DNA from: Herbiconiux sp. L3-i23
Lineage (GTDB): Bacteria; Actinomycetota; Actinomycetes; Actinomycetales; Microbacteriaceae
NCBI RefSeq assembly: GCF_023734115.1
Contig: NZ_AP025737.1
Span: 806,001 to 870,000 of the forward strand
Reading direction: 5' to 3'
DNA: 64,000 nucleotides
The notes beneath the pieces are model-generated. The model saw nothing but the letters and a program-made list of their open reading frames with translations. It did not search any database and was not told where the DNA came from. Of this stretch, positions 38,339 through 59,434 are shown piece by piece. The position numbers and the translations under genes are program-made. How positions within the stretch are numbered: position 1 is the first letter of the stretch; every line of letters begins with the position of its first letter.

Positions 38339-38427
38339 TCCCCGATTCTGGCAGTCGCCGTCGCGCCCGGCAAGCGGATCCGCAGTTCCGACCCTCGATT
38401 GACACGGAATCCGAAGCGGATGCCCTC

Positions 38428-38455
38428 TTGTCCGTCGATCGCGGATGGGTAGGGT
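38428..38455 (+). promoter_or_regulatory. Putative promoter of the aldehyde dehydrogenase gene
   Basis: TTGTCC (38428-38433) and TAGGGT (38450-38455) are 16 bp apart. Transcription would start at or within a base or two of the ATG at 38463, giving a leaderless mRNA. No ribosome binding site is visible before that ATG. Confidence 0.4.
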
Positions 38456-38462
38456 GGTGCCC

Positions 38463-39899
38463 ATGAGCGGAACCGAACTGCGCAACTTCATCGGCGGCGA
38501 CTACGTCGACGCGACCAGCGATGAGCGACTCGATCTCATCGATCCCGCCACCGAGCAGGTGTACGCCACGAGCCCGATCTCGAACCGGCAGGACGTCCAC
38601 GCCGCGTACGAAGCCGCGGCCGCCGCGTTCGAGCAGTGGGGCGAGACGACCCCCGCCGAGCGGCAGCTCGCGCTCTTCCGCATCGCCGACGCGATCGAGA
38701 AGCGGGCCGACGAGTTCGCCGAGGTCGAGTCGCAGGACACCGGCAAGCCGCTGGCGTCGCTCGTCGACGACGAGATCCTCGTCTCGGTCGACCAGATCCG
38801 CTTCTTCGCCGGCGCCGCCCGCGTGCTCGAAGGGCGCGCCGCGGGCGAGTACATGGCCGACCACACCTCCTTCGTCCGCCGCGAGCCGATCGGCGTCATC
38901 GGCCAGGTCACGCCGTGGAACTATCCGCTCAACATGGCGACGTGGAAGTTCGCCCCGGCGCTCGCCGCCGGCAACGCGATCGTGCTGAAGCCGTCCGACA
39001 CGACCCCGTCGTCGACGCTGCTGCTCGCCGAGGTCGCCGCCGAGTTCCTGCCCCCGGGCGTGCTCAACGTGATCGCGGGCAACCGCGACACCGGCGCGGC
39101 GATGATCGACGACACGATCCCGCAGATGGTCGCCATCACCGGGTCGGTGCGCGCCGGCATGGAGGTCGCGAAGGCGGCCGCGAACGACCTGAAGCGCGTG
39201 CACCTCGAGCTCGGAGGCAAGGCGCCCGTGATCGTCTACGACGACGCCGACATCGAGCTCGCGGTCGCCGGCATCGCCGGTGCCGGCTACTTCAACGCCG
39301 GTCAGGACTGCACCGCCGCCACTCGGGTGCTGGTGCAGGCGGGCATCCACGACGAGTTCGTCGCGGCGCTCGCCGCGTACGCGAAGGACAACGCGAAGAC
39401 CGGCGCCCCGCGCGACGAGGACGTGTACTTCGGCCCGGTCAACAACGCCGACCAGCTGCAGCGGGTCACCGGGTTCATCGACCGTCTCCCCGACCACGCC
39501 GACATCGCGCTCGGCGGATCGCGCCAGGGTGACACCGGCTACTTCTACGAGGCCACCGTGGTCAGCGGACTGCGCCAGGACGACGAGGCGATCCAGCAGG
39601 AGATCTTCGGCCCCGTCATCACCGTGCAGAAGTTCACCGACGAGGCCGAGGCGCTGCGGTGGGCGAACGGCGTGCAGTACGGTCTCTCCTCATCGGTGTG
39701 GACCCGCGATCACGGCAAGGCGATGCGGGCGGCGAAGAAACTCGACTTCGGCTGCGTGTGGATCAACACCCACATCCCCCTCGTCGCCGAGATGCCGCAC
39801 GGCGGTTTCAAGCACTCCGGCTACGGCAAGGACCTCTCGATGTACGGCTTCGAGGATTACACTCGCATCAAGCATGTGATGAGCTACATCGGCGGCTGA
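38463..39899 (+). CDS. Aldehyde dehydrogenase, 4-aminobutyraldehyde dehydrogenase type
   Basis: A 478-residue NAD-dependent aldehyde dehydrogenase. The catalytic Cys283 is in AGQDCTAATR and Glu249 in HLELGGKAPV. PWNYPLNMATWK and the late QEIFGPVITVQKF are conserved. The GQDC context, rather than GQ-x-C variants of succinate-semialdehyde enzymes, and the neighbours favour 4-aminobutyraldehyde as substrate, giving GABA. It is divergent from the Lrp/aminotransferase/oxidoreductase operon and probably shares its regulator. GABA would be used by the aminotransferase gene at the right end of the window. Confidence 0.92.
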   Translation: MSGTELRNFIGGDYVDATSDERLDLIDPATEQVYATSPISNRQDVHAAYEAAAAAFEQWGETTPAERQLALFRIADAIEKRADEFAEVESQDTGKPLASLVDDEILVSVDQIRFFAGAARVLEGRAAGEYMADHTSFVRREPIGVIGQVTPWNYPLNMATWKFAPALAAGNAIVLKPSDTTPSSTLLLAEVAAEFLPPGVLNVIAGNRDTGAAMIDDTIPQMVAITGSVRAGMEVAKAAANDLKRVHLELGGKAPVIVYDDADIELAVAGIAGAGYFNAGQDCTAATRVLVQAGIHDEFVAALAAYAKDNAKTGAPRDEDVYFGPVNNADQLQRVTGFIDRLPDHADIALGGSRQGDTGYFYEATVVSGLRQDDEAIQQEIFGPVITVQKFTDEAEALRWANGVQYGLSSSVWTRDHGKAMRAAKKLDFGCVWINTHIPLVAEMPHGGFKHSGYGKDLSMYGFEDYTRIKHVMSYIGG

Positions 39900-40007
39900 T
39901 CGGCCGGTGGGGTTCACGCACACGAGAGACGGCGACCCCGTCCGACGCGCGCGGCCGCGACCGGGGCGCGGGATCGGGACGGGGCACCCGGGGGGAGACG
40001 AGCCGAC

Positions 40008-41351
40008 GTGACCCCTGGGCACGCCTTCTATTCGCCCCTCGCCGCTGAGGTCGGCGGCGCGCTCAACTGGACCTTCTTCGCCGCGGGAACGGTGTTCGCC
40101 GGCTTCGAGTCGGCCGTTCCCGTCGACCTGATCGCCGGGCTCTGGCGCCTCGCCTCCGATCCGGATGCGACCCTCGAGTCGGTCGTCGCCTCCATTCCGC
40201 TCCGGGGCCCCGACGCCGTCGAGTCCTTCGCCGTCGTGGTGCTCGGCGAGCGCCTCTCGGTGGTGCTGCGCGGCTCCGGGAGCGTCGACATCCTGACCGC
40301 AGCGGGGCAGCGGCGCATCGATTCGCGAGCCATGCAGCCCTGGTACCTGGCCGAGTTCGACGGGGTGAGCGCCCTCGCGCTCGGGTCGTCGGAGCGTCCG
40401 ATGGGGGTCGACAGCGCCCCCGCCTCACGCGACCTGCCGGTGATGAGCGGACTGGTGCGGGCTCCGTGGCTCGCCTGGACCGTCGCCGCGGGGGAGCGGG
40501 CCGTCGACCCGTCGGCCGCGATCCGCGCCCCGTCGACCGGGCCGACCCCGATGAGCTCGCGGATCCCGCAGCATCAGCCCTCCGCCCCGATCACCGGTTC
40601 GATCCCCGTGCAGAAGATGGCCGCCGCGCCGGGGCCGTACCGTGCACCGATCACGACGCCGATCCCGGTGATCCCCGCCGCGCTCGCGACCGCCGACCTC
40701 CCCCCGCTGCCCGGTGCCCCCGAGGTGCCGCGCAAGCAGGATCCGCTGATCGGACGCGGGGGCGGCGACATCGGAGCCGGGGACATCGAGGACACCGTCA
40801 CCGGTCTCGGGACAGGGCAGTGGTCGCTGCTGCAAGAGGAGGAGCGCGCCGCGCAGCTCGCCGCCGCGGCCGAGCAGGGCGATATCGGCGACACGCTCGT
40901 CACCGAGCGTTCCCGGCACCGCGCCGACGTGCCGACCCTGACGGCGTGGTCGCCCGCGCGACTCGAGCACGACCTGCGGTTCTCGTCCGCCGGACGAGGC
41001 GGCGCGGTCGGCCACTACAGCTTCCGGATCGGAACCGGCCAGATCTACCGGCTCGACACGCCCGTGTACATCGGACGCAAGCCGAGCAGTCCCCGCATCG
41101 TCACCGGCACCATTCCCCGCCTGCTGAAGGTCTCCTCCCCGTCGATGGAGGTGAGCGGCACGCACGTCGAACTGCGTCAGGAGGGCGGCAACGTCGTCGT
41201 CACCGACATGCGCTCGACGAACGGCACCTTCGTCTCGCAGCCGGGCGCCGCGCACGTAAAATTGCGGCAGGGGGAGTCGTTGGTGGTGACGCCGGGAACG
41301 CTGGTGGACATCGGCGACGGCAACGTGATAGAGATACTTCCCATCCGCTGA
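40008..41351 (+). CDS. FHA-domain protein, first gene of the kinase/Fn3 cluster
   Basis: A 447-residue cytoplasmic protein. Residues 1-150 form an unrecognised globular part (begins MTPGHAFYSPLAAEVGGALN), followed by a Pro/Ala/Gly-rich linker of about 170 residues. The C-terminal FHA domain (about residues 340-447) has the phosphothreonine-binding elements YIGRKPSSPR, SSPSMEVSGTHVEL and DMRSTNGTFV. FHA domains read phosphothreonine, and a kinase and phosphatase follow, so this is probably the reader of that kinase. It starts at GTG 40008. The PP2C gene follows after 56 bp in the same direction. Confidence 0.9.
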   Translation: MTPGHAFYSPLAAEVGGALNWTFFAAGTVFAGFESAVPVDLIAGLWRLASDPDATLESVVASIPLRGPDAVESFAVVVLGERLSVVLRGSGSVDILTAAGQRRIDSRAMQPWYLAEFDGVSALALGSSERPMGVDSAPASRDLPVMSGLVRAPWLAWTVAAGERAVDPSAAIRAPSTGPTPMSSRIPQHQPSAPITGSIPVQKMAAAPGPYRAPITTPIPVIPAALATADLPPLPGAPEVPRKQDPLIGRGGGDIGAGDIEDTVTGLGTGQWSLLQEEERAAQLAAAAEQGDIGDTLVTERSRHRADVPTLTAWSPARLEHDLRFSSAGRGGAVGHYSFRIGTGQIYRLDTPVYIGRKPSSPRIVTGTIPRLLKVSSPSMEVSGTHVELRQEGGNVVVTDMRSTNGTFVSQPGAAHVKLRQGESLVVTPGTLVDIGDGNVIEILPIR

Positions 41352-41407
41352 CCGCCCCGCCTTCCGTCGTTTCCGGCCCGCGGGCCACGCAGTAGTCAGG
41401 ATGGTCA

Positions 41408-42247
41408 GTGACACAGATCGGTCGTAGCAATCCGGGCTACACCGTCTCGGTTCCGCGTCGGCCCGACATCGAGATCACGCTGTCGTGGTCGGCGGTCACC
41501 GATGTCGGACGCAAGCGAGCGGTGAACGAGGACAGCTTCGTGGCGCAGAGCCCGCTGTTCGCCGTCGCCGACGGCATGGGCGGACACTCGGCGGGCGATC
41601 TCGCGAGCACCGCCGTCGTCACCCGCCTCGCCGAGGTCATCGAGGCCGACTTCATCGACCCCGACGTGGTCGAGCACGCGCTCAACACGGCCGCCCTCGA
41701 CATCGAACGCGTGTCGGGCCGATCGGCTCTCGGCACCGGGACCACCGTGACGGGCGCGGCGCTCACCCTCGTCGGCAGCGACCCGTACTGGGCGGTGTTC
41801 AACATCGGCGACTCGCGCGTGTACCAGCTGCGCGGCCGGCTCTTCGAGCAGGTCACGGTCGATCATTCCGTGGTGCAGGAGCTCGTCGACTCCGGTGCGA
41901 TCACCAAGGAGCAGGCCGAGCACCATCCCGACAGCAACGTCATCACGCGCGCGATCGGCTTCAACGAGCTGCCGGCGCCCGATCTGTGGATGATCCCGGT
42001 CACCGAGGGGCTGCGCCTCATGATCTGCTCCGACGGGCTCACCAAGGAGTTGAGCGACGAGGACATCCGTCAGCAGCTCGTCGCGGGCGCGCCGTCGCGC
42101 GAGACCGCGACGGCGCTCGTCGACGCGGCGCTCGGCCGCGGCGGCCGCGACAACGTCACCGTGCTCGTCGTCGACGTCGTCGCGACCACCGGCGACTTCG
42201 ACCTCGACCAGACGGTCCCGCGCAGGGGGACGGGGCGCCACTCCTGA
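41408..42247 (+). CDS. PP2C-family serine/threonine phosphatase
   Basis: A 279-residue PPM/PP2C phosphatase, soluble, without a membrane segment. All metal-binding motifs are intact: RAVNEDSF, VADGMGGHSAGD, INIGDSRVY with following DHS, SDGLT and GGRDNVTVLV. It probably reverses the action of the kinase encoded next. It corresponds to PrpC of the bifidobacterial cluster. The start is GTG 41408. A gap of 176 bp with a possible promoter separates it from the kinase gene. Confidence 0.94.
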   Translation: MTQIGRSNPGYTVSVPRRPDIEITLSWSAVTDVGRKRAVNEDSFVAQSPLFAVADGMGGHSAGDLASTAVVTRLAEVIEADFIDPDVVEHALNTAALDIERVSGRSALGTGTTVTGAALTLVGSDPYWAVFNIGDSRVYQLRGRLFEQVTVDHSVVQELVDSGAITKEQAEHHPDSNVITRAIGFNELPAPDLWMIPVTEGLRLMICSDGLTKELSDEDIRQQLVAGAPSRETATALVDAALGRGGRDNVTVLVVDVVATTGDFDLDQTVPRRGTGRHS

Positions 42248-42423
42248 TCAGCGGCCTCATCCGTACCGTGCCGTCTGCCCCTCATTTGGGGGCAGACCAA
42301 TAGTCCACAAGGTCCGCTCAATCGGCGGGACCGGTGTACCCCTCGCCTACAATCAGTAGACACTGCGCGTGGACCGCGTCCGCGGCGCGCGAAAAACGAA
42401 GTCCGCGGCATCGAGGGGAAGAC
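42248..42423 (+). promoter_or_regulatory. Region upstream of the kinase gene with a possible -10 element
   Basis: This 176-bp gap holds TACAAT at 42348-42353, close to the -10 consensus, but no clear -35. It suggests that the kinase and the long downstream run of overlapping genes have their own promoter, separate from the FHA/PP2C pair. Confidence 0.35.
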
Positions 42424-43833
42424 ATGGCGCGACGCCTTCCTTCGACCCCGCCCACGCTCCCGGGCTTCAGCTACGTGCGCGCGCTCGGCTCCGGCGGCTT
42501 CGCCGACGTGTTCCTTTACGAGCAGAACATGCCGCGGCGCCAGGTTGCCGTGAAGGTCATGCTCTCCGAGGTCGTCAACGAGCAGGTCCGGCAGATGTTC
42601 CAGGCCGAGGCCAACCTGATGGCGCAGCTCTCGACGCACCCGTCGATCCTCACCGTCTATCAGGCGAGCGTGTCCTCCGACGGCCGGCCGTACCTCGTGA
42701 TGGAACTGTGCTCCGCCGCGCTCAGCGAGCGGTACCGGCGCGAACCCATCCCCGTGCCGGAGGTCCTGCGGGTCGCGATCAAGATCGCGAGTGCCGTCGA
42801 GACCGCGCACCGCGCCGGGGTGCTGCACCGCGACATCAAGCCCTCGAACATCCTCACCACCGCGTACGGGCACCCTGTGCTCTCGGACTTCGGCATCGCC
42901 GCGACGCTCTCCGAGTCGGAGCGCACCGAGTCGATCGGGCTGTCGATCCCGTGGTCGGCGCCCGAGGTCCTGATGGACGAGACGGCGGGTACGGTCGCGA
43001 GCGAGGTCTGGTCGATGGCGGCCACCGTCTACAGCCTTCTCGCGGGGCGCTCGCCGTTCGAGATCCCGGGCGGCGAGAACAAGTCCGCCGACCTCATCTC
43101 GCGCATCAACCGGGCGAAGATGCAGCCGATCGGCCGGAACGACGTTCCCGCCCGTCTCGAGTCGATCCTGCAGCGCGCGATGTCGAAGAAGCCCGAGCAC
43201 CGACCGGCGAGCGTGCTCGAGCTCATCCGCGAACTCCAGTCGGTCGAAACCGAACTGGGTGTGCCGCAGACGCCGCTCGAGGTCGCGATGGACGATTGGG
43301 CGCTCGCGACGGTCGCCGACCTCGAAGACCGAACGCGCCTTCGCGGCATCCCCGCACCGGGGCAGCAGGAGCGCCGCCGCCGGCGGTCAAGGGCGTACGA
43401 GGGGACGGGCGACTCCCGCCCGGTCGGCACCATGCTGCGACCGCAGAGCGGGTCGCCGCAGACCGGTGCCGTCGCGGCACCCGCCGCGCGCATGACCTGG
43501 CTCGCCTGGGTGCTCGTCGCCGCATCCGTGCTCGTCATCGCGCTCGGTGCGACCGCCGCGATGGTGCTCTTCCGCGCCGCGTCGTCCGAGATCCCGACCG
43601 TCGGCGCGGTCCAGGCGAGCACCGACGACGGACGGGTCGTCTTCAGCTGGGACGACGCCGGGCAGGGCGACGACGCCTACCGCATCACGACAAGCGACGG
43701 CGCGACGAGTGTGCAGAAGGGCACCCGCTTCGCCGTCGATGCCGGCGACGGCGGCCAGGTCTGCATCACCGTCACCGTCGTGCGCGACGGCAGGCCGGGC
43801 GCCGCGAGCGCCGAGAAGTGCGCGGGAACGTAG
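42424..43833 (+). CDS. Membrane serine/threonine protein kinase with Fn3-like extracellular part
   Basis: A 469-residue Hanks-type kinase. The catalytic domain spans about residues 13-285: glycine loop GSGGFADVF, Lys44 in VAVKV, catalytic Asp137 in HRDIKPSN and Asp155 in DFGIA. A basic juxtamembrane linker precedes one membrane span (about residues 360-383). The extracellular tail of about 85 residues looks like a single fibronectin type III fold (VVFSWDDAGQGDDAYRITTS) and has two Cys residues. There are no PASTA repeats, so this is not a PknB. It starts at ATG 42424; the giant surface protein gene begins two bases after its stop. Confidence 0.94.
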   Translation: MARRLPSTPPTLPGFSYVRALGSGGFADVFLYEQNMPRRQVAVKVMLSEVVNEQVRQMFQAEANLMAQLSTHPSILTVYQASVSSDGRPYLVMELCSAALSERYRREPIPVPEVLRVAIKIASAVETAHRAGVLHRDIKPSNILTTAYGHPVLSDFGIAATLSESERTESIGLSIPWSAPEVLMDETAGTVASEVWSMAATVYSLLAGRSPFEIPGGENKSADLISRINRAKMQPIGRNDVPARLESILQRAMSKKPEHRPASVLELIRELQSVETELGVPQTPLEVAMDDWALATVADLEDRTRLRGIPAPGQQERRRRRSRAYEGTGDSRPVGTMLRPQSGSPQTGAVAAPAARMTWLAWVLVAASVLVIALGATAAMVLFRAASSEIPTVGAVQASTDDGRVVFSWDDAGQGDDAYRITTSDGATSVQKGTRFAVDAGDGGQVCITVTVVRDGRPGAASAEKCAGT

Positions 43834-43835
43834 TC

Positions 43836-46800
43836 GTGCAGGCTGCACCGTCCCCCCTCCGCAGGATCCTCGCCGCGATCTCGCGGCGGAAGTCGATGCT
43901 CATCGCCCTCGTCGGCGGCATCGCGATCGCGTCGGTCCTGATCGGCGTCGCCGTCGTCTCCGACGGCTACAAGGCGCAACGGCTCGACCTCGACGACGGG
44001 TCGGTGTGGGTCGTCAACGGGTCGAAGCAGGTCGTCGGCCGCGCGAACACGCAGATCCGGGCCCTCGACACCGTCGTGGCGAGCACCAGCGGCACCCTCG
44101 ACGTCCTGCAGCAGGGCACCGAGGTCGTCGTCCACGACCGCGGCAACAGCACCATCGAGTTGCTCGACCCGGCGACCTCGACCATCGAGGACACCATCCC
44201 GGTGCCGCCCGACGACACCCGGATCTTCACCACCGGACCGCGGGTCGCCGACGGGGTCGCGGTCGTGCTCTCGCAGGGCACCGGCGAGGCGTGGGTCGTG
44301 CCGCTCGCGCAGCTCGACGCCTTCGACGCGCAGTCCGAGGCCGACCTCGTCTTCGGGGCCGGCGCGGTGGGCGCGATGGATTCGGACGGCACCTTCTACG
44401 TCTACTCGCCCGAAGCCTCGCAGGTGTCGCGGGTCGAGGCGGCCGATGGGGCGGTGGTCAACCAGACCTACCCGGTCGACGGCCCCACCGCGGACGACGA
44501 CACCGCCCTCACCGTGGTCGGCGGACGTTTCGCGCTGCTCGACCTCACCACCCGCCTCCTCTACACGGCCGACGGCACCGCGGACCTCGAGAGGCTGATC
44601 GCCGGGTCCGACGACATCCGTCTGCAGACCCCGGTCACCGCCGACGAGGGCGGGCGCGGCGGAACCGACCAGGTCTACGTCGCGAGCACCAGCGGCCTCG
44701 TGTCGGTGCCGTTCGGCGGGCAGCCCGAGATCGTCGCCGACGCGAGCGCGGCCGGGGCGGGCAGCCTCGCCGCCCCGCTGGTCAGAGCCGGTTGCGCCTA
44801 CGCAGCCTGGCCGGGCGGCGCGTTCTGGAGCCGATGCCTCGACACCGTCGACGCCGACCCCCGAGGCGACACTGCGGTGCTGCCGGGCGTCTCCTCCGCG
44901 GCGCAGCTCGGCTTCGCGGTGAACGGCCGCAACGTCCTGCTGAACGACACCCGATCCGGAGCGAGCTGGGCGGTGCAGGACGGCAACGTCTTGATCGACA
45001 ACTGGGCGGACCTGCTCGACCAGGAGGAGGACACCCAGGTCGTCGAGGAGAACGACGAGGACACCCCGCCCGAGTTCGACAAGCTGCAGCAGCCGCCGGT
45101 CGCCGTCGACGACGAATTCGGCGCACGACCGGGGCGCACCAGCGTGCTCCCCATCCTGCTGAACGACTACGACGCGAACGGCGACGTGCTCGTCGTCACC
45201 GAGCTGAGCGGCTTCCCGCAGGACGCGGGCCGCCTCACCCTGACCGGCGACCGCCAGCAGATCCTCGTCGATCTCGACCCTGCGGCGTCGGGCACGCTGT
45301 CGTTCCGCTACACGATCACCGACGGACGCGGCGGCAGCGCCTCGGCGGCCGTGAGCCTCACCGTCCGCGGCGACGACGAGAACGCAGCGCCCGTCCAGGT
45401 GCGCACCACGAAGGCCACCGTCGCCGCGTCGTCGCGCGCCACGACGCAGGTGCTCGGCGACTGGTACGACCCCGACGGCGACGCGTTCTTCCTCTCCACC
45501 GCGTCGGTCGGCTCGCCCGACAGCGTCACCTACAAGCCCGCCGGCGACGTCGTCTTCATCGACGGCGGCGCCGGGCAGGGGGTCAAGGACGTCGCGCTCG
45601 CCGTCTCCGACGGACGCGCGGACGGTGCGGGCACCCTCGCGGTCACCGTCCGGCCCTTCGGCGAGGTGCCGATCATCGCTGAGCCCTTCGTGGTGCTCGC
45701 CTACGCCGACCAAGAGGTCGAAGTCGATCCGCTCGCGCACGTGCGCGGCGGCAACGGCGCCATCCGCCTCACCAACGTGCCCGACAAGGCCGACGTCCGC
45801 CTCATCCCCGACTACGAGGGCGGCACCTTCCGGCTCGTCAGCTCGAAGGCGGGCACCCACTACCTCGACTACACGGTGAGCGACGGCGTCGTCACCACCA
45901 CCGGAACGCTGCGCGTCGACGTGGAGGCGCAGCCCGACCCGGGCAGCGCCCCGATCCCGGTCCCGCACACGGCGTTCATCCGGCAGGGCGGCACCCAGAA
46001 CGTCGACGTGCTCGCCACCGACATCGACCCCGCGGGCGGCGTGCTGCTCGTCACCGGCGTCGAGAGCGTGCCCGCGACCTCCGGTGTGCGCGTCGAACTG
46101 CTCGAGCAGCGCCTGCTGCGCGTCACCCTCGTCGGACCGATCGAGGGCGGCAGCCTCTCCTTCCGGTACACCTTGAGCAACGGCCTCGCCGAAGCCGACG
46201 GCGCGGTCTCCGTGATCGAGATCCCGGAACCCGCCCGCCTGCAGCCGCCCATCGCGTCCCCGGACCGCGTGTCCGTGCGCGTCGGCGACGCCATCGACAT
46301 CCCGGTGCTCGCGAACGACGAGCAGCCCGACGGGGAGGCGCTCACCCTCGACCCCGCCCTCGTCGAGAACCTGCCGAGCGGGGCGGGCCTGCTGTTCACC
46401 GCCCAGAACCGGCTGCGCTACCTGGCCCCGCAGGAGACCGGCAACTACTCCGCCGTCTACCGCGTGAACGGCCCCGACGGGCAGTGGGCGACGGCCGAAG
46501 TGACCATCGCCGTGCGCGAAGCCGACCCGGCCTCCAACAACCCGCCGGTGCCGAAGACGACGACAGCGCGCGTGCTCGCCGGCGAGAGCGTCCGCATCCC
46601 CATCCCGCTCACCGGGATCGATCCCGACGGCGACTCGGTGCAGCTGCTCGGCCAGGAGTCGAACCCCGAGAAGGGCGCCGTCGTCGAGGTCGGCAGCGAC
46701 TGGATCGAGTTCGAGGCGGGCCAGTACTCGGCCGGCACCGACACCTTCACGTACCGTGTGGTCGACAGTCTCGGCGCCTCCGCGGTCGGCACCGTGCGCG

Positions 46801-49778: not shown

Positions 49779-50839
49779 CCGACACGACGCCGTCGGCGGT
49801 GCCCGTCCCACAGCCGTCGACCCCACAGCCGCCGACCCCCAACTCGAACCGAGGAGCAGGAACCCACATGACGATGACCCCCGAGCAGGCCGCGTGGTTC
49901 ACCGACATCTTCGGACGGGTCGCCGCGAACATCGAGCAGGTCCTCCTCGGCAAGAGCCACGTCATCCGTCTCGCCCTCACCGCGATGCTGAGCGAAGGCC
50001 ACCTGCTGCTCGAGGACAACCCGGGCACCGGCAAGACCTCGCTCGCCCGCGCGATGGCGCAGAGCGTGCAGGGCAGCTCCAACCGAGTGCAGTTCACGCC
50101 CGACCTGCTGCCCGGCGATATCACCGGGGTGAGCATCTACGACCAGCGCAGCGGCGAGTTCACCTTCCACGCCGGCCCCATCTTCGCGAACATCGTGCTC
50201 GCCGATGAGATCAACCGGGCGAGCCCCAAGACCCAGAGCGCACTGCTCGAGGTGATGGAGGAGGGCTCCGTCACGGTCGACGGCGTCCGGCACGCCGTCG
50301 GCGCGCCGTTCATGGTGATCGCGACCCAGAACCCCGTCGAGCAGGCGGGCACCTACCGTCTTCCCGAGGCGCAGCTCGACCGCTTCCTCATGAAGACCTC
50401 GATCGGCTACCCCGACCACGCGGCGACGGTCCGCATCCTCGAGGCGTCCACCGTGCGCTCGCACGAGACGACGGTGCCCGCGATCGTGCCCGCCGAGATC
50501 GTCGTCGACATGGCGCACCTGTCGAGGACCGTGCACGTCGACCCGTCGATCACCGACTACGTCTCCCGACTCGTCGAGGCCTCGCGCTCGGCCGTCGAGG
50601 TGCGCCTCGGGGCGAGCGTCCGCGCCGCCATCTCGCTGCTGCGCACCGCGAAGACCCTCGCCGCCTCCAACGGGCGGCACTACGTCATCCCCGACGACGT
50701 CAAGGCTCTCGCCGAGCCCGTGCTCGCCCACCGACTGCTGCTCGACCCCGAGGCGGAGTTCGACGGCGTCACCCCGTCGAACGTCGTCGCCCAGCTGCTC
50801 ATCGAGGTGCCGCCGCCCTCCGAACGGCAGGCCGTGTGA
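49775..50839 (+). CDS. MoxR-family AAA+ ATPase
   Basis: About 354 residues. Walker A is EDNPGTGKTS, Walker B is IVLADEINRASPKTQSALLE, sensor 1 is VIATQNPVEQAGTYRLPEAQ, and a C-terminal lid is present. MoxR ATPases act as chaperones or activators and are typically encoded next to DUF58 proteins, as here. I give the start as ATG 49775, which overlaps the upstream stop (ATGA) and adds a Pro/Thr-rich tail. An in-frame ATG at 49868 has a better ribosome binding site (GAGGAG) and would give a 323-residue protein close to the usual length. Either may be right. The stop overlaps the next start by four bases. Confidence 0.92.
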   Translation: MTDTTPSAVPVPQPSTPQPPTPNSNRGAGTHMTMTPEQAAWFTDIFGRVAANIEQVLLGKSHVIRLALTAMLSEGHLLLEDNPGTGKTSLARAMAQSVQGSSNRVQFTPDLLPGDITGVSIYDQRSGEFTFHAGPIFANIVLADEINRASPKTQSALLEVMEEGSVTVDGVRHAVGAPFMVIATQNPVEQAGTYRLPEAQLDRFLMKTSIGYPDHAATVRILEASTVRSHETTVPAIVPAEIVVDMAHLSRTVHVDPSITDYVSRLVEASRSAVEVRLGASVRAAISLLRTAKTLAASNGRHYVIPDDVKALAEPVLAHRLLLDPEAEFDGVTPSNVVAQLLIEVPPPSERQAV

Positions 50840-52287
50840 GCACCACGTCCCGTCACCGCAGCGGCAGGCCGGGCGCCGACCCGCAGCGCAGCCGCGGTGC
50901 CACGGCGACCGGCACCGGCACGCGGACGGGCACCCGCACGCGCGTCAGGACGCAGAGCGGGGGGGCTCTCGCCGGCTTGCGCAACGAGCGCACCAAGATC
51001 GTCGGCGACCGCACCGGAATGCTCGCCGACCTCCAGGTGGTGCTCGTGCGCGCAGGCCGGTCGGCGGGCAACGCGATCGGAATCGCCACGAGGCACGTCA
51101 CCGCGGTCGTCACGCCGCTCGGCTGGAGCATGCTCGCCGTCGTCGCCGTGTCGTTCATCGTCGGCTACGCGGCGTCGTGGATGGAGCTCGTCGCCGTCGC
51201 ATGGGCGGGCACCGTCATCATCGCCGTCGCGTCGCTGTTCCTCATCGGCGCCGGGGGTCACGACATCGGCCTGCGCATGCCGCACGACCGCGTCGTCGTG
51301 GGCGACCGCGCCGTCGGGGCGCTCACCGTGACGAACCCGAAACGGCGACGACTGCTGGGCGCGACCATCGAGATCCCCGTCGGCGACGGCCTGCTCGAGC
51401 TGCCGCTGCCGTCGATCGGCGCGGGTGGGAGCCACGACGACGTCTTCACCGTGCCGACCACGAAGCGCGGCATCATCGAGATCGGGCCGGTGCGCACCGT
51501 GCGCGCCGACCCCATCGGCCTCGTCCGCCGCGAGCAGGTGTGGGCCGCGCGCGTCGAGCTGTACGTGCACCCGAAGACGGTGTCGATCCCGTCCGCGAGC
51601 ACCGGGTTCGTGCGCGACCTCGAAGGTCACCAGACCCGCGACCTGACCTCGAGCGATGTCGCCTTCCACGCCCTCCGCGACTATCAGCCGGGCGATGACC
51701 GGCGCTACATCCACTGGAAGTCGACGGCGCGGCAGGGCGAGCTCATGGTGCGCCAGTTCGAGGAGACCCGGCGAAGCCATCTGATGGTGGCTCTGAGCCT
51801 CGCCGAGGCCGACTACGAGGACGACGAGCAGTTCGAGCTCGCCGTGAGCGTCGCCGGATCGCTCGGGGTCAGGGCCATCCGCGACGCGCGCACCGTCTCG
51901 GTCGTCGCGAGCGAACGCACCCCGGAGTTCGCCAAGCGCAAGGTCTTCGCCACCCGCAACCTCCGGACCGTGACACCGGTGCGTCTGCTCGACGACCTCG
52001 CCGGCGTCACCAAGGTGTCGTCGGCGCTCGGCATCACCGACCTCGCCCGGGTGGCGGCCGAGCAGGTGTCGGGCATCTCCGTCGCCTTCCTCGTGCTCGG
52101 CTCCACGCCGACCGTCGCCGCGCTGCGCACGGCCGCCGCGTCGTTCCCGGCCGGCGTCGAAGTCGTCGCCGTCGTCTGCGACGCGGGCTTCGCCCCGGGA
52201 CTCACCCGCGTCGGGGAACTGACGGTGCTCACCGTCGGCTTCCTCGACGACCTGCAGAAATCACTCGCCCGGTCGGGGGCGCTGTGA
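50836..52287 (+). CDS. DUF58 domain membrane protein
   Basis: A 483-residue protein with a long basic, Arg/Thr-rich N-terminus and two adjacent membrane spans (about residues 95-135). A beta-rich segment follows, then the DUF58 signature GDDRRYIHWKSTARQGELMV near residue 290, with a von Willebrand A-like end. DUF58 proteins regularly pair with MoxR ATPases and transglutaminase-like proteins, but their biochemical role is not settled. Start GTG 50836 overlaps the MoxR stop, and the stop overlaps the next start at 52284 (GTGA). Confidence 0.9.
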   Translation: MSTTSRHRSGRPGADPQRSRGATATGTGTRTGTRTRVRTQSGGALAGLRNERTKIVGDRTGMLADLQVVLVRAGRSAGNAIGIATRHVTAVVTPLGWSMLAVVAVSFIVGYAASWMELVAVAWAGTVIIAVASLFLIGAGGHDIGLRMPHDRVVVGDRAVGALTVTNPKRRRLLGATIEIPVGDGLLELPLPSIGAGGSHDDVFTVPTTKRGIIEIGPVRTVRADPIGLVRREQVWAARVELYVHPKTVSIPSASTGFVRDLEGHQTRDLTSSDVAFHALRDYQPGDDRRYIHWKSTARQGELMVRQFEETRRSHLMVALSLAEADYEDDEQFELAVSVAGSLGVRAIRDARTVSVVASERTPEFAKRKVFATRNLRTVTPVRLLDDLAGVTKVSSALGITDLARVAAEQVSGISVAFLVLGSTPTVAALRTAAASFPAGVEVVAVVCDAGFAPGLTRVGELTVLTVGFLDDLQKSLARSGAL

Positions 52288-54611
52288 TGGCCCGCCGCCC
52301 GCCCCTTCGACCGACGTCCGTCGCGATCGCCGTGATCCTGATCGACCTCGCGCTGCTCCTCGGCGCGTGGACGTTCTGGCCCATCCACCAGAGCGCCGCC
52401 CTCGCCGTCGCGGTCGGCGTGGCCTGCGCCGCGGCGACCCTGATCGCCGTGCTCGGCGCGGTGCTGCGCTGGGGCGCCGCCGTGGTCGGCGCCGTCACGA
52501 TCGGCGCCTACCTGGTGCTCGGCGTCGGCGCGGCGGTGCCAGACGAAGCGCTCCTCAGGTTCATCCCGACGGTCCCCGGCCTCGCGCGGCTCATCTCGGG
52601 ATCCGCCCTGTCGTGGAAGGAGCTCCTCACCATCTCGCTGCCCGTCGGCGACTACGAGGCGCTGCTCATCCCCGTCTTCCTCCTCACCCTGCTCCTCGGC
52701 GTCGTATCGCTGACCATCGCCCTGCGCGCTCGCCTGCCGGAACTCGCGATCCTCGGCCCGATCGGGCTGTTCCTCGCCGGCATCCTGTTCGGACCGACCA
52801 CGGTCGAGGGCGTCGTCCTGCCGACACTCGCGCTGCTCGTCGCCTGCCTCGCGTACCTGGTGTGGTGCCGCACGCGTCGGCGCTCCGAGGCCATCCGCCT
52901 GTTGAACGAGCAGTCCGGCACGGCGGTCGAGGCCCGCGTCGATCGGCGGCGCGCGGGCCTCCGGACCGCCGTCGGGGCCGGGGTGATCCTGCTGCTCTCG
53001 GTCGGGGGAGCGGTCGCGGCGACCGCCGTCGCGCCGCCGTCGCCGACACGGAGCGTGCTGCGCTCGGCGATCGAGAAGCCCTTCGACCCCCGCGACTATC
53101 CGAGCCCACTCTCGTCGTACCGCCGGTACTTCCAGCCCGACCGCGCCGACGAGGCGATGCTCACCGTCGAAGGGCTGAGGACCGGCGAGCTGGTGCGGCT
53201 CGCGACCCTCGACAGCTACGACGGCGTCGTCTACAGCGTGGGCAGCTCGGAGGTGACGAGCGCGTCGGGGACCTTCACGCGGGTTCCCTTCGCCCTCGAC
53301 ACCGAGGGGATCACCGGCCGGACGGCGAGCGTCGGGATCACCGTCGGCGAATACTCGGGGCTCTGGGTTCCCGACGCCGGGGCGCTCGTCCGCATGGACT
53401 TCACGGGGCAGCGCTCGAGCGAGCTGACCGGCGGCTTCTACTACAACGCGGTCAGCGGAACGGGAGCGGTGCTCGCCGGGCTCCAGCCCGGGGACTCCTA
53501 TCGGTTCGACGCCGTCGTGCCCGAGCGCGCATCCGACGACGAGATCGCCGCCCTCAGCCCGGGCACGGCACCCGTGCCGGCTCCCGCGGTGGTGCCCGAC
53601 GAGCTCGACACGGCGGTGCAGACCGCCACCGCCGACGCGACGAGCAGTGGCGACAAGCTGCTCGCCGCGGTGCAGGCGATCCGCGAGCGGGGCTACATCA
53701 GCCACGGGACGGGCGAGGACGAGCCGTTCAGCAGATCGGGGCACTCCGCCGACCGCATCACCGAGCTGCTCACCGACGATCCGATGCTGGGCGACGCCGA
53801 ACAGTACGCGGTGACCGCCGCCCTCATGGCGCACCAGCTCGGCTTCCCCTCGCGCGTGGTGCTCGGCTTCGCACTGCCGGAGGACGCCGGGGATGCCCCC
53901 GTCGATCTGGTCGGCGCCGACCTGACCGCCTGGATCGAGGTCGCCTCCGCCGACGGCCAGTGGGTGCAGATCGACCCCAATCCGCCGGTGCGGGACATCC
54001 CGGAGCAGCAGCCGGAGGACTCGACGAAGGTGGCGCGGCCGCAGTCGGTCGTGCAGCCGCCGCCGGACGAGCGAATCGATCAGGACGAGGTCATCCCGCC
54101 GGACGTCGCCGAAGACGACCAGCCCGAACCGCTTCCGGTGTGGCTCGGCGTCCTGCTCGTCGTCCTCAGTGTGCTCGGCTGGATCCTCCTCGCGATGGCG
54201 ATCCTGCTCGCGCCGTTCGCCGCCGTCGTCGCGGCGAAATGGCAGCGGCGCCGTCGCCGACGGAACACGGGCACCGCGCTCGAGCGGATCGGCGGCGGAT
54301 GGTCCGAGTTCGCCGACACGGCGGCCGACCTCGGCTACGAGGCGACGCCCCACGCCACCCGGTACGAGGTCGCGATGGCCGTCGGCGGACGCGAACCACT
54401 GGTCCTCGCGGCTGCGGTCGACCGCGCCACCTTCGCGCCGGGGACCCCCGACGACCCCGAAGTGGACCGCGTCTGGGACTCGGTGTCCGTGTTGCGCGAG
54501 TCGATGCAGGCGGGGCGCACGAGATGGGAGAGGATCAAGGCGCTCGTCTCGGTCAAGTCATTCGCTCGCAACCGGGAGATCCGGCGGCGAAACGAAGGGC
54601 TGAAGCGATGA
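52284..54611 (+). CDS. Transglutaminase-like membrane protein lacking catalytic Cys and His
   Basis: A 775-residue protein. Five or six N-terminal membrane spans are followed by an extracellular domain, a transglutaminase core (about residues 440-570), a Pro/Asp-rich stretch, one more span (about 616-650) and a basic cytoplasmic tail. The core shows the family layout, but Ala505 stands in GDAEQYAV where active members have Cys, and Thr548 stands in ADLTAWIEV where they have His. The Asp of the triad is kept (Asp564 in QIDPNPP). The fold is therefore probably used for binding rather than catalysis. The start is GTG 52284 (ATG 52287 is equally possible), overlapping the DUF58 gene. Confidence 0.9.
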   Translation: MMARRPPLRPTSVAIAVILIDLALLLGAWTFWPIHQSAALAVAVGVACAAATLIAVLGAVLRWGAAVVGAVTIGAYLVLGVGAAVPDEALLRFIPTVPGLARLISGSALSWKELLTISLPVGDYEALLIPVFLLTLLLGVVSLTIALRARLPELAILGPIGLFLAGILFGPTTVEGVVLPTLALLVACLAYLVWCRTRRRSEAIRLLNEQSGTAVEARVDRRRAGLRTAVGAGVILLLSVGGAVAATAVAPPSPTRSVLRSAIEKPFDPRDYPSPLSSYRRYFQPDRADEAMLTVEGLRTGELVRLATLDSYDGVVYSVGSSEVTSASGTFTRVPFALDTEGITGRTASVGITVGEYSGLWVPDAGALVRMDFTGQRSSELTGGFYYNAVSGTGAVLAGLQPGDSYRFDAVVPERASDDEIAALSPGTAPVPAPAVVPDELDTAVQTATADATSSGDKLLAAVQAIRERGYISHGTGEDEPFSRSGHSADRITELLTDDPMLGDAEQYAVTAALMAHQLGFPSRVVLGFALPEDAGDAPVDLVGADLTAWIEVASADGQWVQIDPNPPVRDIPEQQPEDSTKVARPQSVVQPPPDERIDQDEVIPPDVAEDDQPEPLPVWLGVLLVVLSVLGWILLAMAILLAPFAAVVAAKWQRRRRRRNTGTALERIGGGWSEFADTAADLGYEATPHATRYEVAMAVGGREPLVLAAAVDRATFAPGTPDDPEVDRVWDSVSVLRESMQAGRTRWERIKALVSVKSFARNREIRRRNEGLKR

Positions 54612-55312
54612 CCTGTGCACGGTGCGGCGCCGACCTGCCCGAACGCGCCCTGTTCTGCGGCGAATGCGGCAGCGCCGTCTACGCGGCGACTCCCGCGGCC
54701 GGCCCGGCGGACGTCGCCGCGACGCCCGCCACCACCGACTCCGTCGTGGCCCCCCCTGCGAGCGCTCCCGCTGCGGGGGCGGCGCCCGGCGCTGCGCCTG
54801 CGGGCGAGGGCGACGAGAACGCGACCCGCATCGTCGACCTGCTCGAACAGCAGGGCGCGTGGCGGCCGCCCACCGGCGACTCCGCACCGCCGGTCGTCGT
54901 CGAATCCGCATCGCCCGCGCTCGCAGAGCCGTCGGGGCCCCCGATCGACGAGGCGACGCGGATGCCCGAACGGGCGAAGCCCGAGCCGGTCGCCTTCACA
55001 CTGCATTTCAGCACGGGCGAATCGGTCACCGTCGAGGGCACCGGCCTCGTCGGGCGGCGTCCCGCACCGCAACCGGGTGAGTTCTTCGACGGCTACGTGA
55101 CGATCGACGATCCTGGCCGTTCGGTGTCGAAGACGCATCTCGAGTTCGGTCAGGAGGGCGGCGTGTTCTGGATCAGCGACCGCTTCTCGGCGAACGGCAC
55201 CGTCGTCCGCGAACCGGGCCGCGCACCGCGACTGTGCCCCGCCGGCATGCGCTCGCGTGTTCCCCGCGGTTCCCGCGTCGACATCGGCGAGCAGTTCTTC
55301 GTCGTCACCTGA
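54608..55312 (+). CDS. Zinc-ribbon FHA-domain protein
   Basis: A 234-residue protein. The N-terminal zinc ribbon has two C-x-x-C pairs (CARCGADLPERALFCGECG). It is followed by an Ala/Pro/Gly-rich linker of about 100 residues with a conserved-looking NATRIVDLLEQ, and a C-terminal FHA domain (about residues 140-234) with VGRRPAPQPG, SVSKTHLEF and RFSANGTVV. It is the second phosphothreonine reader of the cluster, and Thr residues in the linker could be targets of the kinase. ATG 54608 overlaps the upstream stop (ATGA). It ends the tightly coupled gene run; the EssC-like gene follows after 102 bp. Confidence 0.9.
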   Translation: MTCARCGADLPERALFCGECGSAVYAATPAAGPADVAATPATTDSVVAPPASAPAAGAAPGAAPAGEGDENATRIVDLLEQQGAWRPPTGDSAPPVVVESASPALAEPSGPPIDEATRMPERAKPEPVAFTLHFSTGESVTVEGTGLVGRRPAPQPGEFFDGYVTIDDPGRSVSKTHLEFGQEGGVFWISDRFSANGTVVREPGRAPRLCPAGMRSRVPRGSRVDIGEQFFVVT

Positions 55313-55414
55313 CGCACGGGGCGCACATCCTCCACAGCGGAGAGTCGCCGCGTGTTCCCCACCGGCGGCACGATGGGACGCGGATCCGGATCGCGGTCGT
55401 GATCGAGTGGTGTC

Positions 55415-58060
55415 ATGCGTCTGCAGCTGCCGCCCCCGCCCGCCGAGGCGCGACCGATGCCGTTCCCGTGGATTGGGGCTCTCGCCCCGGTCCTCGCGGC
55501 CGCGCTGCTCTTCGCGCTGACCCGCTCTCCGCTGTCCCTCGCTTTCGCCGCGCTGGGGCCGCTCATGGCGGTGGCCGCGCTCGTCGACGGACGGCGGGGC
55601 TCTCGTCGAACGCGTCGTGTCGAGACGCTGCGGCGCGCCGATGAGCTGTCCCGCCTGAGCGTCGACATCGCGGAGCGGCACGACGCGGTGCGTCGGCGCC
55701 TCGCCACCACCGCCCCGTCCGCGCGGGAGCTGATCGCCGCCGACGCCCCGAGCACCGCGGCGACACCCGGCGGGCCGCTCCTCGTGCGGCTCGGCCTCGG
55801 CACGGTGCCGTCGGGGCTCGACCTCGAGCCGCAGACGCTCTCCGACCGTCCGATCGCCGAAAGCGCAGCGCGTGTGACGCACGCCCCCGTGATCGTCGAT
55901 GCGCGCGGAGGCATCGGTGTGGTGGGCGAGAGGTTCCTCGCGAGCGTGTTCGCCCGTACCGTCGAGGTCCAGCTGGCCGCGCAGGGGCAGGCGATCGACG
56001 AGGCGTCGGTGAGCATCGCCTCCTCGCTCGCCGCGCTCCCCGCCCGGTGCGGCGTGGTCGTCGAGGTGTGCGGACCGCGCGAGGCCCGCATCATCCGAGG
56101 CCCGGGGCACGAGATCGGCGACTCGTTCGAACCCGAGATGCTCGGCGCGCCCGAGGCGGCTTCGCGGAGGCGGACGCTGCAGGGCACGGTACCGGCGCAT
56201 GCCGAACTCCGCGGGCTCCTCGACGCCCGCGCCGCGGGAGTCGGTGATCTGAGCGTCGCGTTCGCGGTCGCGGCGGACGGGCCGCTCACCATCGACCTCC
56301 TCGCGGACGGACCTCACGCGCTCGTCGGAGGAACGACGGGCAGCGGCAAGAGCGAGCTCCTGATCGCCTGGATGCTCGCGCTCGCCAGCGCCGCCCCGCC
56401 CGAACGGCTCGAACTGCTGCTGTTCGACTTCAAGGGCGGCGCGAGCTTCGACCGGGTCACCCGCCTGCCCCACGTGCGCGGACTCGTCACCGACCTTGAC
56501 GGTCACGGCGTCGATCGAGCCGCCGCCTCACTCGGTGCCGAGATGCGGCGACGCGAGGACACCCTCCGCGCCCGTCGGGCCCGATCGATCGACGAGTGCG
56601 ACGACCTCTCCCGGCTCGTGATCGTGGTCGACGAGTTCGCGGCGCTGCTCGGCGGGCGGAGCGACCTCCACGACGTGTTCGCCGACGTGGCCGCGAGGGG
56701 ACGCTCCCTCGGTATGCATCTCATCCTCTGCACGCAGCGGCCGACCGGGGTGATGCGCGACTCGCTGCTCGCCAACTGCGGCTTGCGCATCTCGCTGCGC
56801 GTCGTCTCCGCCGCCGACAGCTCGGCGGTCATCGGCATCGACGCCGCCGCCCGGATCCCGCGATCGGCACCCGGCCGCTGCTTCGTCACCCTGCACGGCG
56901 ACCCGCCGGTCGAGGCCCAGGTCGCCTCGGGCGACGAGCTCATCCTCGCCACGATCGTCGACGACCTGGTCGCCTCGGGACGGCGCGGGTCGGCGCGCAC
57001 GCCGGGCTTCCTCCCGCCCCTGCCCGCTCGTATTCCTCTGAGGGACGCCGTGCGCGCCGCCGGCGATGGCGCCACGGGCGTCGTGCTCGGTCGGCTCGAT
57101 CTGCCGGCGGAAGGTCGCCAGCCCGTCGCCCTGTGGGATCCCGCCCGCGACGGAGCCCTCGTCATCGCCGGGGCGCCCGGGTCCGGGCGCAGCGAGGCGG
57201 CGCGGACCATCGCGCGGGGTCTCGGCGCCGCCGTCCTGCGAGGCGGCGACGCCACCGCGGTCGAACGGTTCTGGGACGGCCTCCACGACGGCGAGCAGCC
57301 CCTCGTCGTCGACGACCTCGAGGCGATCCTCGACGCCCTCTCGGACGATCACATGGCCGCGCTCGCGGACATGATCCCCTCCGCCCTGCGGGCCCGAGGC
57401 CGACGGGTCGCCGTGACCGTGGCGTCGCCCGTGGCGGGCGCGGTGCGCCCGATGCTCGCCGCGTTCGGATCCCGGCTCGAACTCCGGGCGGCGAGCCGGG
57501 ACGACCACGTGCTCGCCGGTGGGGGAGCACGCGACTTCGACCCCGACGCCCCCGCGGGATCCGGGCGTTGGCACGGTGCGAGCATCCAGGTCGCGATCGA
57601 CGACACGCACGACCTCCGCGTCGACGGGAGAGGAGGACCCGGCGACGAAGGAGAACCCGACGAGGTCGGATTCCGCGCAGGCACACTCACCTGCGTGGTG
57701 AGCGTGCTGCCGGGCCGCCGCGTCGCCCAGCTCGCGACCCGCCAGAACCTGCGCGTCTTCGACGTGCGCGGGGCCGGCGCTCAGAGCCTCGCAGACCTCG
57801 ACGCCGACACCGCCCACGTCGTCGTCGGCGACCCCGATGGATGGCAGAACGCGGTGCACCTCTGGACGGCGCTCGCCGACGCCGACGTCGTCTACGACGG
57901 CTGCACCGTCTCCCAGTACCGGCTCGTCTCCCGTCGCAGGACCGTGCCGCCTCCGCTCGCCGACCTCGAGGGCCGGGTCTGGCTCAGCCGTCCCGAGCAG
58001 CCCGCCCGCCGTGCGATGGTCGACTGGACGCAGGACACGATCGCCGGGGTGACGACCTGA
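55415..58060 (+). CDS. FtsK/SpoIIIE-type ATPase, EssC/EccC-like
   Basis: An 881-residue protein. Two membrane spans lie near the N-terminus (about residues 20-58), as in EssC. The first FtsK/SpoIIIE ATPase domain has an intact Walker A (GGTTGSGKSE, Lys312) and Walker B LVIVVDEFAALL, with DFKGGASFDRV, GMHLILCTQRP and LRISLRVVS. A second ATPase-like domain has GAPGSGRS, with Arg592 in place of the Walker Lys, so it is probably inactive. EssC/EccC proteins energise type VII secretion. This one lacks the N-terminal FHA domains of EssC, and an FHA protein is encoded just before it. No WXG100 substrate gene is in the window, so a role in secretion is open. Confidence 0.88.
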   Translation: MRLQLPPPPAEARPMPFPWIGALAPVLAAALLFALTRSPLSLAFAALGPLMAVAALVDGRRGSRRTRRVETLRRADELSRLSVDIAERHDAVRRRLATTAPSARELIAADAPSTAATPGGPLLVRLGLGTVPSGLDLEPQTLSDRPIAESAARVTHAPVIVDARGGIGVVGERFLASVFARTVEVQLAAQGQAIDEASVSIASSLAALPARCGVVVEVCGPREARIIRGPGHEIGDSFEPEMLGAPEAASRRRTLQGTVPAHAELRGLLDARAAGVGDLSVAFAVAADGPLTIDLLADGPHALVGGTTGSGKSELLIAWMLALASAAPPERLELLLFDFKGGASFDRVTRLPHVRGLVTDLDGHGVDRAAASLGAEMRRREDTLRARRARSIDECDDLSRLVIVVDEFAALLGGRSDLHDVFADVAARGRSLGMHLILCTQRPTGVMRDSLLANCGLRISLRVVSAADSSAVIGIDAAARIPRSAPGRCFVTLHGDPPVEAQVASGDELILATIVDDLVASGRRGSARTPGFLPPLPARIPLRDAVRAAGDGATGVVLGRLDLPAEGRQPVALWDPARDGALVIAGAPGSGRSEAARTIARGLGAAVLRGGDATAVERFWDGLHDGEQPLVVDDLEAILDALSDDHMAALADMIPSALRARGRRVAVTVASPVAGAVRPMLAAFGSRLELRAASRDDHVLAGGGARDFDPDAPAGSGRWHGASIQVAIDDTHDLRVDGRGGPGDEGEPDEVGFRAGTLTCVVSVLPGRRVAQLATRQNLRVFDVRGAGAQSLADLDADTAHVVVGDPDGWQNAVHLWTALADADVVYDGCTVSQYRLVSRRRTVPPPLADLEGRVWLSRPEQPARRAMVDWTQDTIAGVTT

Positions 58061-58220
58061 GCGTGCGAGAAGGACGAGATCCTCCGCTCCGGCCGCCCGA
58101 GGGAACGGATTTCGTGACGATCATGTTTCGTGATGGCCGATCTGCGCGGTCGGCTCTACGGATCGGGCGAGCGCTGTGCCAGGATCGACACACTTTCCGA
58201 ACTGCCCCTCAGGAGGTCCG

Positions 58221-59432: not shown

Positions 59433-59434
59433 CG

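Follow-up and report, generated by a model that had tools for sequence, protein, structure and literature searches.

Nine plus-strand genes fill positions 40008-58060 of the window, the 64,000-nucleotide stretch of DNA analysed here (C1:806001-870000 of the 3.18 Mb genome of Herbiconiux sp. L3-i23, family Microbacteriaceae). They join a set of genes like the PFNA operon of Bifidobacterium to the gene for a shortened EccC/EssC-type ATPase, which we call ESS. On balance, we think that the nine genes probably specify a pared-down, kinase-switched machine for type VII-like secretion together with its envelope module. More tentatively, we suggest that PFNA, so far seen as a means by which bifidobacteria sense their host, may be an ancient module of the envelope that belongs to actinobacterial type VII secretion, and which in this family would drive a new phospho-gated type VII secretion system (T7SS) subtype with a minimal ATPase whose FHA function is split off, a pseudo-transglutaminase scaffold and a WXG100 protein encoded in trans beside groEL. 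The evidence computed here is the gene set and order, the predicted fold of ESS, intact motifs in the kinase, the phosphatase, the FHA domains and the first motor domain (D1) of ESS, a transglutaminase site that has lost its catalytic Cys, joint occurrence and joint loss of ESS and the WXG100 protein, and physical linkage of PFNA-type genes to full-length EssC in other families.

The initial annotation described nine same-strand genes, and all nine are real: third-position guanine-cytosine (GC) frame signal is consistent with each of the reading frames listed here.

40008..41351, + strand: FHA1, an N-terminal domain with a weak pseudo-PP2C-like fold match, a linker with a conserved D-D-T-V motif and a C-terminal FHA domain (Pfam FHA, residues 354-436)
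41408..42247, + strand: PP2C-type Ser/Thr phosphatase (Pfam PP2C_2; NCBIfam Stp1-like model below cut-off)
42334..43833, + strand: membrane Ser/Thr kinase with a short extracellular domain (Pfam Pkinase, E 5e-42; membrane helix by eye; start may be 42424)
43830..49778, + strand: giant surface protein of 1982 residues (Pfam Big_9, Cadherin_4, Cadherin_5, fn3; anchor by eye)
49775..50839, + strand: MoxR-family AAA+ ATPase (Pfam AAA_3, E 2e-61)
50836..52287, + strand: DUF58 protein (Pfam DUF58, E 6e-13)
52284..54611, + strand: putative pseudo-transglutaminase, a membrane part plus a transglutaminase-like core without catalytic Cys/His (Pfam Transglut_core)
54608..55312, + strand: FHA2, a zinc ribbon, a linker with a conserved D-x-E-x-T-R motif and an FHA domain (Pfam Zn_Ribbon_1; FHA 20.5 bits)
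55415..58060, + strand: ESS, a predicted shortened EccC/EssC-type ATPase of 881 residues without FHA domains (Pfam FtsK_SpoIIIE, E 2e-28)

ESS resembles a shortened type VII ATPase

ESS has two N-terminal membrane helices, from residue 19, and an FtsK_SpoIIIE domain at residues 287-484. Its top sequence matches in the PDB were T7SS ATPases (EccC), and the NCBIfam models for such ATPases matched it below their cut-offs. An AlphaFold model built from 36 sequences (predicted local distance difference test, pLDDT, 87.7; predicted template-modelling score, pTM, 0.70) had its best Foldseek match in the cytoplasmic domain of EccC (4nh0; E 2.5e-32, template-modelling scores 0.49/0.50), followed by structures of ATPases 2-3 of EccC and EssC. 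Inspected by eye, the model comprises the membrane helices, D1 at about residues 280-520, a second motor domain (D2) at about 540-735 with a partly degenerate P-loop, and a remnant of the third (D3) at about 758-870 without a P-loop. The D1 motifs were intact in 39/39 homologues. Judged by sequence and model, ESS is a shortened type VII ATPase whose first motor domain is intact and whose fold is nearest to EccC.

In a tree of D1, 42 short proteins formed one clade (support 0.92), separate from 31 long EssC proteins; L234, a 43rd row typed as short, did not group with them and is a long EssC that the fetched stretch truncates. At 881 residues, ESS compares with open frames of about 1450-1700 residues for most long EssC proteins of the family. 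We do not claim that short ESS occurs only in this family (f1); two proteins from family f4, presumably Bifidobacterium, lie in the short clade (L123 and L124, with frames of 591 and 688 residues). Among the matches listed in an order-wide search, those reaching past query residue 730 were all in f1. The genes for the two f4 proteins stand directly downstream of two LytR-CpsA-Psr genes, a possible link to wall polymers.

ESS shares its motor fold with FtsK/HerA-type DNA translocases, and it could have a DNA role and be associated with the other genes by accident. We consider this highly improbable: its best sequence and structure matches are to EccC/EssC, it has been lost together with a WXG100 protein (see below), and FtsK has a separate and stronger match elsewhere in the genome, at C1:1049656, on which account identification of ESS as the chromosomal FtsK was also dropped.

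A WXG100 protein encoded beside groEL co-occurs with ESS

The genome has two matches to the WXG100 family (PF06013), both outside the window. One scores below the family cut-off and belongs to a second locus, beside a full-length EssC. The other, an orphan at C1:2642674, 1.8 Mb off, passes NCBIfam TIGR03930, and its W-x-G and C-terminal Y-x-x-x-E motifs are kept in 30 aligned copies. The orphan is flanked by a response regulator/sensor kinase pair and a convergent groEL (L070:7019-11827); among the best 30 of 90 matched genomes, the frame of the sensor kinase was conserved in 28 and that of groEL in 27.

We surveyed 120 genomes of the family for EssC-type and DUF58 proteins at E 1e-20, typing ESS as short where its open frame was <1300 residues (G102 and G009 were put in this class by hand). 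A search of the same genomes for orthologues of the orphan was bimodal, with 86 at E <=2e-13 and the others at 6e-7 or worse. Short ESS and the WXG100 orthologue occurred together in 78 genomes, ESS only in 1, WXG100 only in 8 and neither in 33 (p=8e-21); G090 C79 and G078 C16 were excluded from this table by hand, and of the 34 genomes without an orthologue 10 were assigned by elimination and 4 have weak matches (E 6e-7 or worse). On a tree of the 41 genomes with a fetched core, built from four core proteins and not from housekeeping genes and with some weak nodes (0.10-0.39), the ESS and WXG100 labels agreed in 41/41, with the same four loss clades. The odds of hitting the same 4 of 79 branches at random are about 7e-7.

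The groEL site itself was compared by tblastn at E 1e-3. In all 14 ESS-less genomes tested, from the 33 with neither gene, groEL was present and no WXG100 was detected, although a strongly diverged WXG100 might escape because of this cut-off. The sensor kinase was visible within the 1.5 kb flank in 11 of the 14 (in one at the very edge), and WXG100 was found at the site in 4/4 ESS-bearing controls. Three genomes whose ESS-less labels rest on weak unlisted matches (G003, G031, G105) have genes read as long-type EssC around their WXG100 genes, and these are presumably the unlisted matches. From this co-occurrence and co-loss, the orphan WXG100 is likely the partner of ESS. Since two unlinked genes were co-lost at defined sites, the link can be checked across many genomes.

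The PFNA-type core and ESS can occur apart but are often joined

An EssC-type match was found in 113 of the 120 family genomes and a DUF58 match in 100; 99 of the 100 DUF58-bearing genomes had an EssC-type match, compared with 14 of the 20 DUF58-less ones (p=7e-5). Among the matches listed there were 82 short-type ESS, including the two left out of the table above. The initial annotation had tied the EssC-like gene to the rest of the cluster, and this was borne out for 46 of the 82, which had a DUF58 match listed <25 kb off, always on the same strand and in 45 cases <8 kb away. It did not extend to the other 36, of which 7 had DUF58 farther away on the same contig and 29 had none on the contig.

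The full order FHA1-PP2C-kinase-FN3-MoxR-DUF58-TG-FHA2-ESS (FN3 denotes the giant protein, TG the transglutaminase-like one) was found again in fetched loci of the family. Such an arrangement goes well beyond anything expected by chance: other genera of Microbacteriaceae have these genes in the same order. Core genes stand beside ESS in 31 of 80 named loci (two show just TG before the contig ends); another 42 are PP2C-(FHA2)-ESS loci without an adjoining core, 2 are cut, and 5 (L198, L209, L211, L212, L214) have a long-EssC match and no ESS match of their own, L212 being the one named locus from Bifidobacteriaceae. Microbacteriaceae include Amnibacterium kyonggiense (L009, L191), Plantibacter flavus (L027, L162) and Naasia (L206), which at 44-46% identity is the closest named relative; we take the remaining genera of the named loci to belong there too.

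The core locus lies apart from a PP2C-ESS locus in G002, G033, G108 and G086; G077 has a core locus without ESS and a second locus, FHA1-PP2C-FHA2-ESS; and G016 and G097, from one genus, keep FHA1-PP2C-ESS and have no DUF58 match. Because core and ESS are apart in several genomes, yet close in 46 of 82 cases, they are two separable modules, often joined. The EssC-like gene is a recurrent neighbour of the core, not a passenger.

Within the cluster, the initial annotation noted tight spacing from the kinase to FHA2. With the listed starts these genes are linked by 4-base overlaps, but the overlaps hinge on the start calls, because later starts indicated by codon usage (kinase 42424, giant 43836, MoxR 49868, transglutaminase-like 52287, and likewise EssC-like 55457) would open small gaps. 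The distance from FHA2 to ESS is 102 bases with the listed starts. An alternative open reading frame for FHA2, 54615-55100, proved to be in the wrong frame (the true one is 54608-55312). Scans of 39800-58300, which are weak at 70-74% GC, matched no sigma-70-like promoter and gave one terminator-like match, on the opposite strand; a viral fold search returned nothing useful. Horizontal transfer of the cluster was considered and dropped, as its GC content (70-74%) is near that of the rest of the window (66-73%) and its order is conserved in the family.

The upstream neighbours (35062-39899) are of the amine-catabolism type (FAD oxidoreductase, class-III aminotransferase, AsnC-type regulator and aldehyde dehydrogenase), and the downstream neighbour (58257-62432) is a polyamine-type ABC transporter; the nine genes are placed as if splitting one metabolic neighbourhood. 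The ATP synthase alpha and beta genes lie at 25531-29556, about 26 kb upstream of ESS. Two loci in which the full PFNA core was not seen, L022 and L025, have genes sized like ATP synthase alpha/beta a few kb from ESS, which suggests a common chromosomal position for ESS.

PFNA-type cores adjoin full-length EssC in other families

In an order-wide search of 248 genomes, with proximity rows compiled by hand, the matches listed from outside the family were mostly canonical EssC. Among them, 72 genomes had both EssC and DUF58, and in 38 of these, from 9 families, the two were <25 kb apart; a rough uniform estimate gives about 1 such pair by chance. All 38 pairs were on the same strand with EssC downstream of DUF58, at spacings of about 5, 9-11 or 11.5-14 kb. 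Loci L125-L133 read FN3-MoxR-DUF58-TG and then EssC, with PP2C, FHA and kinase between them in several and a WXG100 match after EssC in L127, L132 and L133, while L134 and L135 have a core and no EssC in the stretch.

The Herbiconiux genome itself carries a second cluster of this kind. Its PP2C, FHA1 and kinase genes are in L068, and FN3-MoxR-DUF58-TG-EssC-WXG100 follow in L008 (C1:619500-639400), so that this full-length EssC/WXG100 locus has its own giant Ig/Fn3 protein, MoxR, DUF58 and putative pseudo-transglutaminase. Its WXG100 gene is followed by those of two candidate substrates, a repetitive protein of 420 residues and one with an LpqN match below threshold. In f4, locus L116 has the order KIN-FN3-MOXR-DUF58-TG-PP2C-gap-FHA, which is the published PFNA order, with EssC apart from it.

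Linked PFNA genes have been called unique to bifidobacteria (PMC8430577). This is too narrow, because PFNA-type clusters are common in Microbacteriaceae and present in other families of the order. The most fitting view of PFNA is that of an envelope module serving as partner to type VII-like secretion.

Signalling residues are kept and the transglutaminase site is lost

Residue counts are for homologues from the loci that we fetched. The catalytic Lys, HRD-Asp and DFG of the kinase were intact in 58/58, the metal-ligand Asp residues of PP2C in 60/60, and the Walker A Lys and Walker B Asp-Glu of MoxR in 70/70. The phosphothreonine-binding residues were kept in 48/48 FHA2 proteins and in 44-46 of 46 aligned FHA1 homologues, the remainder being gaps. 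The FHA domain of FHA2 scores 20.5 bits against a Pfam cut-off of 20.7. Among sequences ungapped at the position, the conserved Thr of the linker was present in 28 of 32 for FHA2 and 26 of 28 for FHA1. The N-terminal domain of FHA1 (40068-40400) modelled poorly (pLDDT 47); as a lead only, it may be a pseudo-phosphatase, because it has weak PP2C-fold matches to PstP and SpoIIE, from E 4e-3. An assignment of FHA1 as TsxJ (DUF6382-FHA) was dropped, its N-terminal part having no Pfam match up to E 10.

The transglutaminase-like protein carries this name in the initial annotation, and the Pfam Transglut_core domain is indeed present; an active enzyme is another matter, its catalytic Cys and His being lost. 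The Cys was found in 0/68 homologues, six of them from f4, and is replaced by A (24), D (14), Q (13), S (7), G (6) or E (4); the His is kept in 9 and the Asp in 53. An alignment to TgpA (PDB 6g49, E 0.17) gave the same Cys replacement. Since the catalytic Cys is absent from all 68, we read the protein, from its residues, as a pseudo-enzyme.

The giant protein has an N-terminal membrane anchor (by eye, from the translation), a region at about residues 45-400 without domain assignment, and then Big_9/cadherin repeats and Fn3. Pfam matched seven stretches of Big_9, five of Cadherin_4 and two of Cadherin_5; fn3 reached E 6.5e-8 for the whole protein, with no single stretch over threshold.

A proposed mechanism and its rivals

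In the mechanism that we propose, ESS, a membrane-anchored EccC/EssC-type ATPase without a built-in FHA domain, would be the motor, and FHA2, from the gene just upstream, would supply the FHA function to it as a separate subunit. The WXG100 protein, encoded between the two-component system and groEL, would be the cargo or an obligate partner of ESS. The membrane kinase would phosphorylate the linker Thr of FHA1 and FHA2, whose FHA domains would read these marks and gate ESS, and PP2C would reset them. The giant Ig/cadherin/Fn3 protein, anchored in the membrane, would span the wall, and MoxR, DUF58 and the pseudo-transglutaminase would assemble or remodel it, coupling secretion to the envelope. 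We infer in this scheme WXG100 export, phospho-gating, contact between FHA2 and ESS, and what the giant and its MoxR module do, and the presumed directions of signalling and transport follow what is known of the protein families.

Several observations weigh against a joint machine of this kind. ESS has neither the FHA domains nor the D3 P-loop of typical T7SS ATPases, and a YukD-like protein was found in 0/8 genomes, with a positive B. subtilis control. The WXG100 gene is outside the cluster and adjoins housekeeping genes, and membership of the WXG100 family does not discriminate, any PF06013 match being found in 24/25 ESS-bearing but also 40/43 contrast genomes; the search for orthologues of the orphan alone separates them. 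Four of the WXG100-only genomes (G013, G095, G066, G039) keep the orphan at the groEL site with no ATPase match at 1e-20; three others (G010, G027, G092) have weak ATPase matches, and G081 is the eighth. G061, with ESS and no WXG100, is a genome 75% complete. Core is present and short ESS absent in 14 of the 41 tree genomes, 10 short-ESS genomes have no DUF58 match at 1e-20, and outside the family EssC and DUF58 are not close in 34 of the 72 genomes with both among the matches listed (14/14 in f14, 5/5 in f20, 2/2 in f4).

The 14 and the 34 also favour a different explanation, in which PFNA is a self-contained surface-sensing system, and ESS with WXG100 forms a secretion system of its own, which has just the phosphatase and the FHA readers in common with PFNA and often adjoins it. 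The split loci of G002, G033, G108, G086 and G077 and the 42 of 80 named loci without an adjoining core point the same way. However, the core and ESS adjoin tightly, in order and on the same strand, in many genera, a PFNA-type core adjoins full-length EssC in 9 other families, and nearly every DUF58-bearing genome of the family (99/100) has some EssC-type ATPase; we regard two separate systems as unlikely, if still a serious contender.

Alternatively, ESS might be an assembly motor for the giant surface protein, and WXG100 an unexported allosteric activator. The operon-like placement of ESS suits such a role. We take the signal-peptide site of EccC to lie in D3. A crystal structure of EccC with a signal peptide covers ATPases 2 and 3 (title of 4n1a), a part that is reduced in ESS, and WXG100 proteins regulate the conformation and activity of EccC/EssC (PMC11217815), which fits an activator. 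On the other side, the giant needs no special exporter, because it has its own N-terminal anchor (by eye), and the 10 short-ESS genomes without a DUF58 match, G016 and G097 among them, speak against the idea, which we judge improbable. The proposal in the initial annotation of a system for building or exporting a surface rod finds no support in that form: the giant appears self-anchored, the ATPase belongs to the EccC/EssC type, and the partner best supported for it, a WXG100 protein, is encoded at another place in the genome.

If the joint machine is real, bifidobacterial proposals for FN3 and the 'transglutaminase' as host-signal sensors or enzymes would be recast. A T7SS would have a kinase, a phosphatase and phospho-readers in one cluster, making phospho-control of secretion directly testable, and a motor that had no substrate would gain a concrete candidate, WXG100.

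Comparison with known systems

The PFNA operon of Bifidobacterium comprises pkb2, fn3, aaa-atp, duf58 and tgm, to which some species add prpC, a hypothetical gene and fha (PMC8430577), and in B. longum the MoxR ATPase of the operon is reported to be a phosphorylation substrate of Pkb2 (PMC8430577). The initial annotation had recognised this likeness, and both gene content and core order agree with the published core: the five core genes have the same order and strand, and phosphatase, FHA, membrane kinase and MoxR are shared (PMC8430577). Unlike PFNA, the present cluster has the phosphatase and one FHA gene upstream of the kinase, a 1982-residue giant with cadherin/Ig repeats, and an EssC-type ATPase at its end. 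The PFNA 'tgm' product is Cys-less here and in the six f4 homologues, and the f4 gene order matches the bifidobacterial one.

The T7SSd of Actinomycetota consists of TsdA, C, D, H and I (Garrett, Higginson and Palmer 2024, PMC11217815). Kinases, phosphatases and FHA proteins occur in T7SS variants, and phospho-control has been raised for them (PMC11217815); MoxR, transglutaminase and fibronectin have 0 occurrences in the main text of that paper. Like T7SSd, the system described here combines an EssC-type ATPase, a membrane kinase, a large Ig-like envelope protein (TsdI, 1654 residues), a WXG100 protein, no YukD-like protein and proposed phospho-control (PMC11217815). Unlike it, the ATPase here has no FHA and reduced D2/D3, WXG100 is encoded in trans with no TsdA in the cluster, and PP2C, two FHA proteins, MoxR, DUF58 and a putative pseudo-transglutaminase are added. 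The kinase and the giant resemble TsdD and TsdI by domain type, but the membrane helix is C-terminal in TsdI and N-terminal in the giant (by eye); homology of the two was dropped, the giant having no match in the f4 EssC stretch L122.

ESS is like the EccC/EssC proteins of T7SSa and T7SSb in its two N-terminal membrane helices, intact D1 and predicted EccC-like fold, and unlike them in its length of 881 residues, its lack of a D3 P-loop and its lack of FHA. T7SSb is marked by an EssC with N-terminal FHA, for which ESS has no match, and by YukD/EsaB, of which the YukD search gave 0/8; the T7SSa protein EccB (PF05108) was found in 0/8 genomes, in a search whose control also gave no match anywhere. 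As in the mycobacterial moxR1 operon, which a review likens to PFNA (PMC12067865), moxR stands beside a DUF58 gene; a kinase, giant, FHA or EssC goes unmentioned for that operon in the available text of the review. Among the open-access papers searched, none names both PFNA and type VII secretion.

With an ATPase without FHA, no WXG100 gene in the cluster and no YukD in eight genomes, the cluster looks, from its predicted proteins, type VII-like yet outside the described subtypes. If our reading is correct, the PFNA and type VII secretion literatures describe parts of one envelope machine.

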